In this document: in pieces, positions 54,576 through 60,906 of the stretch | Position numbering within the stretch: position 1 is the first letter of the stretch | How the letters are laid out: every line of letters starts with the position of its first letter | From: an uncultured Treponema sp. | GTDB taxonomy: Bacteria > Spirochaetota > Spirochaetia > Treponematales > Treponemataceae | Direction of reading: 5' to 3' | Assembly: GCA_947167345.1 (NCBI GenBank) | Contig: CAMVHR010000009.1 | Span: 1 to 64,000 of the forward strand | DNA length: 64,000 bases | The notes under the pieces: model-generated | Databases searched by the model: none | The model's input: only the letters and a program-made list of their open reading frames with translations | Told to the model about the DNA's origin: nothing | Program-made: the position numbers and the translations under genes

Positions 54576-56357
54576 ATGAACATGTTAAAAAGTAAAAAAG
54601 AGATTGAAAGACTTCCTTTTCAGGCTGTGGCTGTCATTTTTTCTGCCATTCTTGCAATTATGCTTATTGTAAGTGCCGTTTTTATTACAAAAAGGGCAAG
54701 GTCAAATTTTGAAAAGACAACCCACAAAGAGCTTGCACAATTCTGCAAGAATATGAAGCTTCAGTTTGAACGCGGTTTGGATGAGCAGATTGCACTTGCA
54801 ATGCAGATGGCTAAATCGCCTGTCATCATCAAGCATTTTGAAGATCCTTCTGATGACAAATATCAGGATGAGGCATTTGATGAAGTTGAGGCCTATCAGG
54901 ATTCGTTTTTAAGCAAACTGTCATTTTTGATTTGTGATAAAGATCTTCGTTATTATTCAAACAGTAAGTATTTGTATACACTGGACAAGGAGGATCCTTC
55001 TAGTGCTTGGTACATACATGCTATGAACTCAAAAAAGGCGTATGAATTTGACGTTGACTATGATATTGGACTAAAACAGACCTTCATGTGGGTCAACGGC
55101 ATTGTCCGCAATCAGAAAGGCAAGTTTCTTGGACTCATAGGCACAGGTATTCCTATTTCTCAATTTGTAGATTCCCTTTATTTGGATTTGCCTGAAGATT
55201 ATTCAATGTACATTTTTAACTCATCGCTTGAAACAACAGGTTCTACAGATTTGCAGCATCTTGAAAACAAGGTTCCCATTACGGATGTCATTGTGGATTT
55301 TAAAGGACGTGAAGAGGAACTTAAGGCATTAAAAGAAACTTTTATAGATGATGAAAACACCGTATATTCGCTTAAGCCTCTTGAAGAAATTGGCTGGACT
55401 ATTGTTGTTTCAAAGAATTATACAGTTAGTGCCTTTATTGAAGGGGCATTGGTTCCTGCTTCGGTTTGTCTTGTAATACTTGTTTTTATTTTTCTTATAT
55501 TCTTTATCTTTTTTAGAATCCATTTGCTCCAATCTAATGAAAAAAATATTGGAAACTCCATTCTTGAAGAAATGGAGAAACTTGCAGACTCTTCAAAAGA
55601 TACGGCTGCTACAGCTCAGGATCAGAGTGCGGCTGTCAAGGAAATTGTTGCCACAATGGAAGACAATACTTCTTTGTCCGAGAGTATATCTAAGAAGATA
55701 AAAGATGTGTCTGGAGTGGCAAGCAAGACTTGTGAAGATGTGTCAGACGGTGTTTCATACCTGGAGTCTAATGTTAAGCAGCTGCATGAAATTGCTGATG
55801 CCAACAACAGTACGATTGACGGAATAAGGGCATTAGGTGAAAAAATAGAGAATATTTGGGATATTGTCAGTCTTATTAACTCTGTTGCTGATCAGGCAAA
55901 GATCATTGCGTTCAATGCAGAGCTTGAAGCTAGCAGTGCTGGAGACGCCGGAAAAAATTTCCACATAGTTGCAAGTGAAATCCGTCGCCTTGCAGATGGC
56001 ATAATCGACGGCACAAAAGAGATTAAGGCTCGGATAAATGAGATTCAACAAAGTTCAGACAGTCTCATTCTTGCCAGCGAAAGCGGAACTGAAAAAATAA
56101 ATGAAGGTGTTGACAAAGCTCGAACTCTTGAAGAGAGATTTGCAAGCATAAAGAATGCTTCTGAAATGACGGCATCAAGCGCAGGAGACATTACTACGAT
56201 AATACAGCAACAGGCAGAAGCTAGCGAACAGATTCTTATTACGCTAAGGCAAATTGCTTTTGGTGTAGATAAATTTAAAGGTGCTACGGAAAGCATTTCA
56301 AAAACTTCCCAGAAACTTAAGGATATAGCGGAGAATCTTTCAAAAGGAGGGATGTGA
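54576..56357 (+). CDS. Chemoreceptor 2 (dCache-like, HAMP-less)
   Basis: This 593-residue receptor has membrane helices at about 15-36 and 290-315, and a periplasmic sensor with SAWYIHAMNSKKAYEFDVDYDIGLKQTFMWVNGIVR and a GLIGTGIPISQFVDSL stretch, a typical Cache arrangement. The signalling hairpin is nearly identical to receptor 1 and has the same unusual tip. The sensor domain differs strongly from receptor 1, so it probably detects a different ligand. It starts 23 bases after receptor 1 and overlaps receptor 3 by four bases. Confidence 0.9.
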   Translation: MNMLKSKKEIERLPFQAVAVIFSAILAIMLIVSAVFITKRARSNFEKTTHKELAQFCKNMKLQFERGLDEQIALAMQMAKSPVIIKHFEDPSDDKYQDEAFDEVEAYQDSFLSKLSFLICDKDLRYYSNSKYLYTLDKEDPSSAWYIHAMNSKKAYEFDVDYDIGLKQTFMWVNGIVRNQKGKFLGLIGTGIPISQFVDSLYLDLPEDYSMYIFNSSLETTGSTDLQHLENKVPITDVIVDFKGREEELKALKETFIDDENTVYSLKPLEEIGWTIVVSKNYTVSAFIEGALVPASVCLVILVFIFLIFFIFFRIHLLQSNEKNIGNSILEEMEKLADSSKDTAATAQDQSAAVKEIVATMEDNTSLSESISKKIKDVSGVASKTCEDVSDGVSYLESNVKQLHEIADANNSTIDGIRALGEKIENIWDIVSLINSVADQAKIIAFNAELEASSAGDAGKNFHIVASEIRRLADGIIDGTKEIKARINEIQQSSDSLILASESGTEKINEGVDKARTLEERFASIKNASEMTASSAGDITTIIQQQAEASEQILITLRQIAFGVDKFKGATESISKTSQKLKDIAENLSKGGM

Positions 56358-58141
56358 ATTTGATTAATAAAATAAAAAAGATTTTGTTCGGTAAGGCAAG
56401 CTTAATTCCGGCTGTAATGATTTTTAGCTCGGCTCTGATTTTTTTTGTAGTATATAAGGTGATTTTAAATCAGTCGGTTGAAAGAAATTTAATTCAGTTG
56501 CTTCGCGAGGAAGTGAACCAGAAGGGCATTATGATGGAAGATTATCTTCAACCAGAGATTGCCCTTGCAAAAAAACTTGCTACGTCTCCAACTGTCATTC
56601 AGTTTTTTAAGAATCCTAATAGCAAAGAAAACAGAAGACGCGCGATGGCTGAATTCCAGAGTTTCAGCGATGCCTTTACTTCGCACAGGGTTTTTTGGGC
56701 GAATGATAAAGATAAGGAATTCTGGAGTAATATGGAATATTCTTATACCATAGATCCTGACAGTCCTAATGACTATTGGTATGGCATGACCCTTTACAAG
56801 ACAGAAGTTTACAATTTTAACATAAATTTCAATCCTGAGATGGGCATTACTTGCTTGTGGCTTAATGGTGTTGTTCGCGATGAAAGCGGAGTCCCAATCG
56901 GTATGGCAGGAACTGGAATTGAGCTTGATAACTTTATTGCAAAGAGTTATGAGACCATTGAAGACGGACTGAAAATGTATTTCTTTAACAGCGATAAGGA
57001 AATTACGGGAGCAAGAGACAAACAGGTTCTTGTTGACAAGACTCTCATAGATACCATTTATTCCCAGCGTCTGGATTTTGAAAATCTTATGGAAAAGGCT
57101 AGGAATCTTGCACATAATGGCGGTAGCCTTTACAGTTTTAAAATCAGTTCTGCAGAATATGGAGCAATACGCTATCTGCCAAGTTACGGATGGTATCTTT
57201 TTGCAACGGCATCTGTGAGTGTTGGAAAACAGAAAGGTATTGGGTCTCTGTTTATAGGAATGGTTCTTGTGTACCTTGTGTTCTGTGCGTTTGTGATTTT
57301 TATTGCAAAACTCAGGAACATGATGGAAAAAGACCGTGCCGCAAGTTACCGTCTGTTAGACGAAACTCAGAGCCTTGCAGTATTGTCTAAAGAAAATGCG
57401 GAAACTGCACAGAACCAGAACGTTGCTGTAAAAGAAGTTGTTGCGACAATGGAAGACAATACTGCATTGTCTGAAGACATATCAAGGAAAATCAAGGATG
57501 TTGCAAGTGTCGCTTCTAAAACCAGCAATGATGTTGCAAAGGGTGTGTCTTATCTTGATGAAAATGTCCGCCATCTGCACGAGATTGCAGCTGCAAACAA
57601 TGCTACAATCGAAGGAATCAAGTCTTTGGGTGATAAGATAGAAAACATTTGGGATATCGTAAGCCTTATTAATTCCGTTGCAGACCAGGCAAAGATTATT
57701 GCGTTCAATGCAGAGCTTGAAGCCAGTACTGCTGGTGAGGCTGGCAAAAACTTTCATATAGTTGCGAGTGAAATTCGTCGCCTTGCTGACGGAATCATAG
57801 ATGGTACTAAAGAGATAAAAGACAGTATTAGCGAGATTCAGCAGAGTTCGGACACTCTGATACTTACTAGTGAAAGTGGAACTGAAAAGATAAAGACTGG
57901 TGTTGAGAATGCAAAAAATCTCGGCGAAAGGTTTAGCAGCATAAAGAATGCTTCTGAAATAACAGCTGACAGTGCCGTTGACATTACTACGATTATTCAG
58001 CAGCAGGTTCATGCCAGTGAGCAGATTTTGACAACCCTTAGGCAGATAGCTGGAGGCGTAGAAAAATTTACTCAGGCAACGGGAAGCATTTCATCTGCTT
58101 CTGAAAATGTTAAGCGGATTTCAGAAGAGCTTGGAAAATAG
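56354..58141 (+). CDS. Chemoreceptor 3 (dCache-like, HAMP-less)
   Basis: This 595-residue receptor has membrane helices at about 18-38 and 297-320. The sensor is closest to receptor 2 (DYWYGMTLYKTEVYNFNINFNPEMGITCLWLNGVVRDE and GMAGTGIELDNFI), so 2 and 3 are duplicates with diverged ligand pockets. The signalling domain again lacks HAMP and carries the QAKIIAFNAELEAS tip. A GGAGG site precedes the ATG, which overlaps the previous stop. Confidence 0.9.
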   Translation: MNLINKIKKILFGKASLIPAVMIFSSALIFFVVYKVILNQSVERNLIQLLREEVNQKGIMMEDYLQPEIALAKKLATSPTVIQFFKNPNSKENRRRAMAEFQSFSDAFTSHRVFWANDKDKEFWSNMEYSYTIDPDSPNDYWYGMTLYKTEVYNFNINFNPEMGITCLWLNGVVRDESGVPIGMAGTGIELDNFIAKSYETIEDGLKMYFFNSDKEITGARDKQVLVDKTLIDTIYSQRLDFENLMEKARNLAHNGGSLYSFKISSAEYGAIRYLPSYGWYLFATASVSVGKQKGIGSLFIGMVLVYLVFCAFVIFIAKLRNMMEKDRAASYRLLDETQSLAVLSKENAETAQNQNVAVKEVVATMEDNTALSEDISRKIKDVASVASKTSNDVAKGVSYLDENVRHLHEIAAANNATIEGIKSLGDKIENIWDIVSLINSVADQAKIIAFNAELEASTAGEAGKNFHIVASEIRRLADGIIDGTKEIKDSISEIQQSSDTLILTSESGTEKIKTGVENAKNLGERFSSIKNASEITADSAVDITTIIQQQVHASEQILTTLRQIAGGVEKFTQATGSISSASENVKRISEELGK

Positions 58142-58149
58142 GAGGTTTT

Positions 58150-59673
58150 ATGAAAGCGTATTCACGATATCTTGTTACGATATGTACCACAACGTTTATT
58201 GGTGTTTTTTTCTTGCGAATTTACCACTATGGATTTATTTACAGGTTTCCGTCAGAAATTATTTTGGGGTGTGTCCCGACTATATTGATTACGCTCTCGC
58301 TAATAGCAATTTGTTCTTTTGTTCAAAAGCCTATTTTGACAAAGTTTGAAAAAATTATAGATAAGGGAAAAATCAATCAGAAGTCTCTTACTCAAAATGA
58401 CATTGAAGAGTGCATGAAAAGTTACAGGCATTATGACATTGTAATAATTGTAGCACACATAGCAGGATTCCTTGTTGGCGCAGGTTCTACTTCAATCATA
58501 ACATCCATAAAGGGCGTTGCACCTTTTAGTCTGGTAACCTTCATCCTTATAGAGCTTCAGTCTGTTGGCGTTGGTTTTATGTGCTATACCATAAACAATG
58601 TTCTTGTAAAGCGTCTGTACATGACTCAGTGCATGCGAAACATCGGAATTAAGCTTAGTGATAATCTTGCTCGCGTGCAGAATGTTGCCGTCGGAGCGTG
58701 TATTTATGTATCTGCAATGAATATGATTACTATTCCTTACAATCTTCTGATGCACCCTGTTGAAAACGGTTTTGCTCTGTTCCTTAGGTACGGTGTTATC
58801 GGCTTGATTTTTAACTTTATTGCCTGTGCAGCTGTATACACAGTTATTGCAAGGCGCATACAGAATACAGAAAGAAAAGTAAGCAGCAATCTTCTTGCAG
58901 AAACAAAAACCCTTGCGAATGCGACTAAGGAAAATGCTGAAAGCAGTCAGAATCAGAGTGCGGCAGTCAAGGAGATTGTTGCTACTATGCATGATTCAAC
59001 TGAACTTGCCGGAAACATTGGTGAAAAAATCAAGCAGGTTTCAGCTCTTGCAGAAAAGTCTCGCGATGCAGTTCAGGCTGGCAGCGAAGCTTTGCAGAAT
59101 AATGTAAAGGAGCTTTTGGACATTAAAAATACAAACATGCTTACTATAGAGGGTATCAGGGATCTTGGCAAAAAAATTAACGGAATCTGGAACATTGTAA
59201 CCATTATAAATACTGTTGCTGATCAGACTAAAATCATTGCATTTAATGCAGAGCTTGAAGCTAGTACGGCAGGTGAGGCTGGAAAGAATTTCCACATTGT
59301 TGCTACTGAAATCCGTCGCCTGTCTGACAACATCATTGACAGCATTAAGGAAATTAGGGAAATAATAAATGAAATTCAGCGCGCATCCGATTCCCTTATA
59401 TTGGATAGTGAAAAAGGAACCAAGCAGATTGATTCTGGCTGTGAGAGTGCAAAATCTCTCGAAAGTGGCTTTGAAAGCATAATGGCTTCGTCAAAAGCTA
59501 CAGCAGACAGTTCTCGTGAAATAATAGATTATGTAGGACAACTTACGTATTCAAGCGAACAGATTTTCATTACATTGCAGCAGATTGCACATGGAATAGA
59601 AAGCTTTACTAGGAATACGGCTGATATTTCTGCAGCATCAGAGAATGTCAAGGACATTGCAAGTCTGTTGTAA
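58150..59673 (+). CDS. Chemoreceptor 4 with a six-helix membrane sensor
   Basis: This 507-residue receptor differs from its neighbours. The N-terminal part (about 1-245) has six predicted transmembrane helices with short loops and no periplasmic Cache domain, so any stimulus must be sensed in or at the membrane. A cytoplasmic loop (about 75-95) links helices 2 and 3. The signalling hairpin has the same tip (QTKIIAFNAELEASTAGEAGKNFH). It starts nine bases after receptor 3 with AGGAGG. The sensor family is not one I recognise. Confidence 0.88.
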   Translation: MKAYSRYLVTICTTTFIGVFFLRIYHYGFIYRFPSEIILGCVPTILITLSLIAICSFVQKPILTKFEKIIDKGKINQKSLTQNDIEECMKSYRHYDIVIIVAHIAGFLVGAGSTSIITSIKGVAPFSLVTFILIELQSVGVGFMCYTINNVLVKRLYMTQCMRNIGIKLSDNLARVQNVAVGACIYVSAMNMITIPYNLLMHPVENGFALFLRYGVIGLIFNFIACAAVYTVIARRIQNTERKVSSNLLAETKTLANATKENAESSQNQSAAVKEIVATMHDSTELAGNIGEKIKQVSALAEKSRDAVQAGSEALQNNVKELLDIKNTNMLTIEGIRDLGKKINGIWNIVTIINTVADQTKIIAFNAELEASTAGEAGKNFHIVATEIRRLSDNIIDSIKEIREIINEIQRASDSLILDSEKGTKQIDSGCESAKSLESGFESIMASSKATADSSREIIDYVGQLTYSSEQIFITLQQIAHGIESFTRNTADISAASENVKDIASLL

Positions 59674-59697: not shown

Positions 59698-59906
59698 TAA
59701 AAAAACCGCCAGCTTGTGGCGGTTTATAGATTGCCAAACTTCATTGTGGAAGGGCAATTAATGAAATGATTTTCCTGCTTTTCATACCGCAGGCGGGGTG
59801 TTAATACTTAACCGACTCCCAAGGAGTCAGGCCTCTTTGTCGGAAACTGCATAACGCCTCCTTATCGTATAGCAGGTGTAAGTCCTCATCTCTTTCCTTG
59901 CTATAC
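59698..59906 (-). ncRNA. Candidate structured non-coding or dual-function RNA
   Basis: On the minus strand a promoter (59912-59939) and a strong terminator (AAACCGCC/GGCGGTTT at 59703-59725 with seven U residues) bound an RNA of about 209 bases. Predicted local hairpins are GUAUAGCA...UGCUAUAC at the 5' end, GACUCC-UUG-GGAGUC, CCUGC...GCAGG and UUGCC-CUUC...GAAG-UUU-GGCAA. It contains several GGA motifs and a 14-codon reading frame with a perfect ribosome site. It is convergent with the chemoreceptor genes and divergent from the Nfn-type genes. I compared it by eye with 6S RNA, tmRNA, RNase P RNA and SRP RNA and saw no match. Confidence 0.7.
59808..59852 (-). CDS. Fourteen-codon reading frame inside the candidate RNA
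   Basis: On the minus strand AAGGAGG (59857-59863) lies four bases before an ATG at 59852 that reads MQFPTKRPDSLGVG and then TAA. The site is a perfect anti-16S match. Much of the coding part overlaps the GACUCC/GGAGUC hairpin, so translation and folding would compete. It may be a small peptide gene, a regulatory leader or chance. Confidence 0.35.
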   Translation of the reverse strand: MQFPTKRPDSLGVG

Positions 59907-59911
59907 TTTAA

Positions 59912-59939
59912 ATATTATCACAGCTTTAAAAAAAAGCAA
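59912..59939 (-). promoter_or_regulatory. Promoter of the candidate RNA
   Basis: Reading the minus strand, TTGCTT (59939-59934) and TAATAT (59917-59912) are 16 bases apart, and a TG one base before the -10 box makes it an extended -10 promoter. The expected start is near 59906. Confidence 0.6.
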
Positions 59940-60051: not shown

Positions 60052-60906
60052 ATGAACAAAATCCTCGAAAAGAGACAGCTCTCTGAGAATGTCTTTTACA
60101 TGAAATTTGAAGCTGCCGACATTGCAAAAAACCGCAAGGCTGGTCAGTTCCTTATTGTGCAGGTTGACTCAGACCTTGGCGAACGCATTCCGCTTACAAT
60201 TGCGGATGCAAACGCAGAAGAAGGATGGGTTGCCATTGCTTTCCAGCCAGTTGGAGCATCTACATACAAACTTGCCCAGCTGAACGCAGGCGATTATCTT
60301 GCTGGAGTGCTCGGTCCTTTGGGAACTCCTTCAGAAATCAATAAATATGACCGTCCTGTTGTGTGCGTTGGAGGCGGTTTTGGAACTGCTCCACTGTATC
60401 CTATTGTACAGGCTCTTAAAGCTGCTGGTAACAAAGTCATCCTTATTGAAGGTGCCCGAACAAAAGACCTTTTGATTTTTGTTGACGAAATGAAAGCTGT
60501 TTGTGATGAAGTAATTATCTGTACGGACGATGGAAGTGCAGGTGAAAAATGCGTTACAACAGTTCCTCTTGAAAGATTGTGTCAGAGCGATGTTCCTCCT
60601 GCAGAAGTTATTGCAATTGGACCTCCTATAATGATGAAGTTCTGTGCTTTGACAACAAAGAAATATAACATCAAGACAACAGTTTCCCTTAATACAATCA
60701 TGATTGACGGAACAGGTATGTGCGGTGGCTGCCGTGTTTCTGTTGGCGGAGAGACAAAGTTTGTTTGCGTTGACGGTCCTGATTTTGATGCACATCAGGT
60801 TGACTGGGACAATATGATGCTCCGCATGAAGTCATTCAAGCCTCAGGAAACAGAAGCCTTCCATAAATGCAAGATGGAGATGGAAGCGGCAAAGCTTGCA
60901 AAATAA
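60052..60906 (+). CDS. Ferredoxin-NADP reductase-type subunit (NfnA/SudB-like)
   Basis: The 284-residue subunit has an FAD-binding barrel (1-100, with AGQFLIVQVDSDLGERIPLTI), an NAD(P)-binding part with VCVGGGFGTAPLYPIVQAL, and a C-terminal [2Fe-2S] motif in GTGMCGGCRVSVGGETKFVCVDGP. These are features of the small subunit of electron-bifurcating transhydrogenase NfnAB or sulfide dehydrogenase. Paired with the next gene it probably exchanges electrons among NADH, ferredoxin and NADPH, a typical step in anaerobic fermenters. TAAGG precedes the ATG. Confidence 0.88.
   Translation: MNKILEKRQLSENVFYMKFEAADIAKNRKAGQFLIVQVDSDLGERIPLTIADANAEEGWVAIAFQPVGASTYKLAQLNAGDYLAGVLGPLGTPSEINKYDRPVVCVGGGFGTAPLYPIVQALKAAGNKVILIEGARTKDLLIFVDEMKAVCDEVIICTDDGSAGEKCVTTVPLERLCQSDVPPAEVIAIGPPIMMKFCALTTKKYNIKTTVSLNTIMIDGTGMCGGCRVSVGGETKFVCVDGPDFDAHQVDWDNMMLRMKSFKPQETEAFHKCKMEMEAAKLAK

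Follow-up and report, generated by a model that had tools for sequence, protein, structure and literature searches.

Within the 64,000-nucleotide stretch of uncultured Treponema DNA that was analyzed (the window), the minus strand from 59939 to 59698 reads directly as a complete small transcription unit. What kind of RNA does this unit encode, and what might that RNA do? The first-pass annotation had described an extended -10 promoter, about 209 foldable bases and a terminator, and had offered a regulator sponge, a dual-function RNA or an undescribed treponemal class as possible identities. The sequence, its fold and its homologues bear out the unit as described. Its features are as follows, all on the minus strand.

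59912-59939, promoter: -35 TTGCTT (59939-59934), 16 nt spacer, TG (59920-59919) and TAATAT (59917-59912)
59867-59906, 5' domain, placed by covariation, with GGA kept in the loop
59906-59899/59874-59867, helix P1 of the 5' domain
59897-59896/59876-59875, GG-CC pairing within the 5' domain
59894-59892/59882-59880, inner stem of the 5' domain
59891-59883, 9-nt loop AGAUGAGGA of the 5' domain, with GGA at 59885-59883
59857-59863, Shine-Dalgarno AAGGAGG, doubling as the second GGA site, from the sequence
59808-59852, mini-ORF of 14 codons plus stop, MQFPTKRPDSLGVG, from the stop position and synonymous third positions
59814-59828, hairpin 2 inside the ORF, GACUCC/GGAGUC, from covariation
59774-59799, hairpin 3 (stem 59793-59789/59778-59774) and H-type pseudoknot (ACC 59799-59797 to loop GGU 59788-59786), from loop-upstream pairing in homologues
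59731-59757, hairpin 4 with a 3-nt 3' bulge, UUGCC CUUC / GAAG UUU GGCAA, from the fold and alignment inspection
59699-59725, intrinsic terminator, AAACCGCC-loop-GGCGGUUU plus U tract, from the fold

A free-standing RNA gene absent from Rfam

The promoter motif, with its extended -10 TG(A)TAATAT at 59920-59912 of the minus strand, and its spacing are identical across all close homologues, and by its sequence this is a sigma-70-type promoter that belongs to the RNA gene itself. We infer that the unit is transcribed, with a predicted start at about 59907-59905 (minus strand) and an RNA length of about 205-209 nt. The 209 nt fold at -63.7 kcal/mol versus a mean of -49.6 for shuffled sequences (z = -3.07). 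An 8-bp terminator followed by seven U residues had been proposed; the stem is indeed 8-9 bp (59725-59703) and the T run is in place (59705-59699), but three of its seven Ts are able to pair in the stem. All 121 copies examined have a terminator-like hairpin with a T run, which in most of them lies 196-226 nt beyond the point where the model match begins.

When the minus strand of the unit was searched against Rfam, no family reached its gathering score and the weak matches (E up to 10) were chance-like; the CsrB/RsmZ models did not match the RNA, and five further member loci gave nothing near threshold. 6S RNA was rejected, as the genome gave no RF00013 match and the fold is a chain of hairpins rather than a long rod with a central bubble. 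tmRNA was likewise rejected, as neither a tRNA nor a tmRNA was found within the window. The earlier impression that the RNA resembles no familiar housekeeping RNA thus holds, and the RNA, conserved in relatives as set out below, is on sequence grounds a real, undescribed family absent from Rfam. Of the outcomes named in the first-pass annotation as counting against it, neither a lack of conservation in relatives nor a match to a housekeeping family was encountered.

Distribution within the genus

When the unit was compared with 59 relatives by BLAST, 19 genomes gave matches, and every one of them belongs to the same genus. From 20 BLAST-found copies we built a covariance model, R1, that covers the 5' half of the RNA; it located the RNA in 94 of 196 same-genus genomes, or about half, and some of these carry two to four copies; covariance-model E-values are rough, and absence from a genome is not firm because most of the genomes are metagenome assemblies. 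Within the family, the same model found the RNA in 4 of 20 genera, and the other sampled members of the order gave no match. A DNA pattern search returned Treponema bryantii, T. zioleckii, T. saccharophilum and strains JC4 and C6A8 as named carriers, together with many ruminant metagenome-assembled genomes.

About 88 of the 94 R1-positive genomes carry what we call class A. The remainder, which gave the weakest R1 matches (G078, G114, G124, G133, G181 and G196), belong to a sister class B having a different 5' stem and a peptide start of MEPIEL or MEPTK, which model R2 placed in 8 genomes. None of the 196 genomes holds both classes (chance about 0.008 if they were independent, with relatedness uncorrected). 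At the class B loci L255, L256 and L257, the frame has six codons (MEPIEL) and the pseudoknot, AAACCG/CGGUUU, is long. An intermediate, read by hand at L262 (G186), has the 3' half of class B and a class-A-like peptide, MLPTKRTCRIEA. Note that a weak match in another genus (L152, G281 C22, genus g37) shows the same plan of Shine-Dalgarno, hairpin-containing frame MENPPEIECLSEAKN and terminator with another 5' part, and may perhaps represent a third class.

Covariation of the fold

Covarying base pairs in relatives had been suggested as a check, and they were found. Covariation computed from the aligned copies is strong in the 5' hairpin and in hairpin 2, where 84% of pairs are standard (pair counts on A1) and 59 doubly changed cells were counted versus 21.7 in shuffles and 2 to 12 with slid partners. 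In hairpin 2, both sides have changed at five of the six pairs. Because the linkers misalign, RNAalifold over the whole length of 52 diverse copies gave no useful information, and hairpin 3 and its pseudoknot were therefore tested by landmarks, whereas hairpin 4, which recurs in homologues with its 3-nt bulge, rests on inspection of the alignment. Pseudoknot pairing of at least 3 bp was present in 46 of 56 homologues, a count that exceeds all 1000 shuffles (mean 33, maximum 42). The 3' pseudoknot is thus supported at the level of sequence pairing, with AAACCG/CGGUUU as its class B form.

A putative two-site CsrA target

The loop of the 5' hairpin retains GGA in 61 of 65 non-redundant copies while the stem changes. 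Its variants besides AGAUGAGGA, namely AGUUGGGAG and AAUACAGGAGGC, keep the GGA, as does class B with its other stems and loops (UAUUGGAUU, UAUAGGAUU). Together with the GGA of the Shine-Dalgarno, this gives the layout of a two-site CsrA target, in which a hairpin loop carries A(N)GGA and the Shine-Dalgarno supplies the other GGA. The protein gene that would be repressed in leaders of the hag, flaA or flaB type was looked for and not found; the 14-16 codon frame is followed by the terminator. Among relatives, csrA was found in 35 of 39 and fliW in 28 of 30. The CsrA of this genome keeps L4, R6, V42 and R44, which we take to be contact positions as in E. coli CsrA.

We favor the reading, at a rough probability of 0.4, that this RNA is translated and acts in trans by binding and titrating CsrA, because of the conserved GGA layout, the presence of csrA and fliW, the parallel with the Campylobacter flaA_mini RNA considered below and the varying neighbors of the gene. 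One CsrA dimer would bridge the loop GGA and the Shine-Dalgarno GGA about 20 nt downstream, and the RNA would in this way mimic a CsrA-repressed flagellin leader in trans and so titrate the protein. Ribosomes initiating on the mini-ORF would compete for the Shine-Dalgarno, such that decoy activity would drop when initiation is efficient, and the ORF hairpin, pseudoknot, hairpin 4 and terminator may stabilize the 3' end and stop ribosomes there. Binding, titration and ribosome competition are steps that we infer.

A sponge of the CsrB type, with many sites, was ruled out because the RNA as a whole is not enriched in GGA (4.6 per RNA versus 4.2 in dinucleotide shuffles), although it is in A(N)GGA (4.08 versus 2.62). 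What survives of the proposed regulator sponge is the plausible pair of a GGA loop and a Shine-Dalgarno GGA. Given the lack of total GGA enrichment, each RNA could hold no more than one or two CsrA dimers, and it would therefore have to be abundant to titrate the protein. Two further facts speak against a decoy: csrA is near-universal in the genus and the RNA is present in only about half of the genomes, and a pure decoy needs neither a conserved peptide start nor a conserved ORF length. The 5' loop could serve another partner than CsrA.

One flagellin leader of this genome shares the layout of the RNA, with AGGA in a hairpin loop and GGAGGA as the Shine-Dalgarno. At this locus (L244, G000 C38), a perfect hairpin, GGGUAAAA-AGGA-UUUUACCC, lies upstream of the flagellin start and is followed by the Shine-Dalgarno AUGGAGGA; judged by these motifs it is likely a CsrA target. 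CsrA sites near flagellin Shine-Dalgarnos have been predicted in T. denticola (PMC9481697).

Selection on the mini-ORF

As first described, the Shine-Dalgarno (59863-59857) is followed by four bases, an ATG at 59852 and 14 codons up to TAA at 59810-59808, and comparison of 58 non-redundant copies now indicates that this frame is selected. In 44 of the 58 copies the mini-frame stops after 14-16 codons, which the other two frames do in 4 and 2; the mini-frame stays open beyond codon 10 in 54, compared with 27 and 36. All three stop codons are in use (TAA 24, TAG 24 and TGA 10). Nearly all copies have GGAGG or GGGAG 4-6 nt upstream of the ATG; in a 16S search for the anti-Shine-Dalgarno, one of four genomes gave a match. 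The peptide begins MQ(F/I/Y)PTK with silent variation at third positions (CAA/CAG, AAA/AAG), and whole codons are lost in frame to give MLPTK via TTA, TTG or CTG. As this start is conserved and residues 7-14 are not, the frame, its length and the first six residues matter and the rest of the peptide does not. By these evolutionary criteria, a peptide of 14-16 residues is translated. Conservation of the unit, seen in its genus-wide occurrence, covarying helices and selected reading frame, is far beyond chance.

These data also give the chief rival its substance, namely that the RNA is a dual-function RNA of the SR1 or SgrS type in which the micropeptide or base-pairing by the 3' half is the main activity and CsrA contact is secondary. 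On sequence evidence the RNA has what defines a dual-function sRNA, its own promoter and terminator and a translated small ORF, and the selected frame, with its fixed stop position, three stop codons and synonymous changes, speaks for the peptide. The peptide start moreover survives codon loss and reaches class B as MEPTK by way of an MLPTKR intermediate, and B. subtilis SR1 is an ORF-bearing sRNA whose base-pairing is aided by CsrA (PMC8501984). However, residues 7 onward follow hairpin 2 and show no conservation as protein, the nucleotides of the CCG codon never vary, and in a few lineages the frame ends after six codons (MRSPEI, MEPIEL). We regard this rival as possible but on the doubtful side. 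The dual-function RNA suggested at first thus gains a frame translated by evolutionary criteria, a support that does not extend to a function of the peptide.

The strong Shine-Dalgarno at 4-6 nt spacing, the fixed ORF length, the end of the frame just past hairpin 2 and the pseudoknot shortly downstream would also suit an RNA directed at the ribosome, either a sensor resembling a leader peptide or an initiation decoy, in which ribosome stalling or termination at the end of the mini-ORF, beside the pseudoknot, refolds the RNA. Against this, there is no downstream gene to control, since the terminator follows and the neighbor may lie on either strand. Moreover, the loop of distant members retains GGA and not the Shine-Dalgarno-like GGAGG, and therefore CsrA fits better than a mimic that binds ribosomes. 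We consider a ribosome-directed RNA unlikely.

Variable neighbors and a relocating cassette

In the window, a chemoreceptor gene ending at 59673 converges on the RNA, and a divergent gene for a ferredoxin-NADP reductase-like protein starts at 60052 on the other flank. The position between chemotaxis and redox genes was therefore correctly described, but as a clue it is incidental because the neighbors differ between genomes. Three tandem chemoreceptor-like genes with similar signaling domains occupy 54576-59673. Across copies the neighbors are of mixed orientation, and 110 neighbor genes have no relative among the other neighbors. As the neighbors vary in kind and in strand, the RNA would act in trans.

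Among 37 pairs of copies of at least 90% identity with known neighbors, 18 have no neighboring gene in common, and in those pairs the similarity extends from about -43, at the -35, to about +210, at the terminator. In T. zioleckii kT3, two copies, L014 (C20:4055-4152) and L015 (C6:51815-51912), are 98% identical over 265 nt. Their likeness begins at the -35 and ends shortly after the terminator, between unrelated flanks, with no obvious target duplication and no visible recombinase, and from this likeness the unit seems to copy itself or to be copied. Since near-identical copies lie by unrelated genes and their similarity stops at the -35 on one side and at the terminator on the other, it is as a compact cassette that the unit relocates. 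We also looked in relatives, by way of the FNR gene, for a clean empty site at the window locus and found none, because G001 and other genomes lose synteny at the intergenic region.

Such relocation, together with up to four copies per genome, raises the possibility of a selfish RNA gene, a unit that copies itself from promoter to terminator and has no host function. This we judge very unlikely. Long-term covariation and frame conservation imply function at the RNA and peptide levels, and no associated recombinase was identified. A mobile-element origin was rejected, as the RNA had no match in phage, plasmid or IMG/VR viral-contig collections. Least credible of all is a cis-acting leader or riboswitch of a neighboring gene, which a structured RNA ending in a terminator might suggest but which we reject because no downstream gene in the same orientation is conserved (the one in the window is convergent, and over all copies they lie on either strand in similar numbers and belong to unrelated families) and the terminator is constitutive in form.

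Discussion

Descriptions of CsrA antagonist RNAs come mainly from Gammaproteobacteria, and homologues of these RNAs are missing from many bacteria that have CsrA (PMC4894983). If the favored reading of a CsrA decoy is true, a widespread spirochete family would fill this gap and link control of motility to translation. Should CsrA turn out not to be the partner, this is still a small RNA that is deeply conserved, unannotated and, by evolutionary criteria, translated into a micropeptide. The way it relocates, as a bare promoter-to-terminator unit, is already unusual. As the RNA is present in cultured species, it is directly testable. The boldest form of the decoy reading, a natural mini-mRNA whose trapping of CsrA is gated by its own 14-codon translation, which would be the first spirochete CsrA-antagonist RNA and would have spread through gut Treponema as a promoter-to-terminator cassette, is one that we hold to be improbable as a whole.

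The HMP2 candidate structured RNAs (PMC8040213) are likewise computational and likewise from Treponema. Those named in the main text of that survey lie directly upstream of ribosomal protein genes, whereas the present RNA is free-standing; novelty is judged here on these main-text candidates, and earlier surveys of structured RNAs may hold an unnamed prediction of it. With CsrB/CsrC and RsmX/Y/Z, which are known from Gammaproteobacteria, the RNA shares the proposed end effect, CsrA titration through GGA hairpin loops, but these RNAs have many GGA loops and no ORF, whereas the Treponema RNA has one loop plus the Shine-Dalgarno. SR1P of B. subtilis, at 39 residues, is longer than the Treponema peptide. 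SR1 itself (PMC8501984) is also a structured small RNA having its own promoter, a translated small ORF and a link to CsrA; it acts by base-pairing to ahrC and kinA mRNA and has no sequence or Rfam match to the Treponema RNA. In Campylobacter the CsrA binding sites of flaA are two GGA hairpins of the leader, and an engineered flaA_mini RNA of about 250 nt, consisting of the leader, 17 codons and a terminator, titrates CsrA (PMC4894983). The C. jejuni flaA leader and flaA_mini share with the Treponema RNA a loop GGA in a 5' hairpin and a second GGA near the Shine-Dalgarno, and flaA_mini further shares a short frame (17 codons there) followed by a terminator, a length of about 200-250 nt and the ability to act in trans. 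Whereas flaA_mini is artificial and derives from a flagellin mRNA, the Treponema RNA is a natural gene with a structured 3' half and a peptide.
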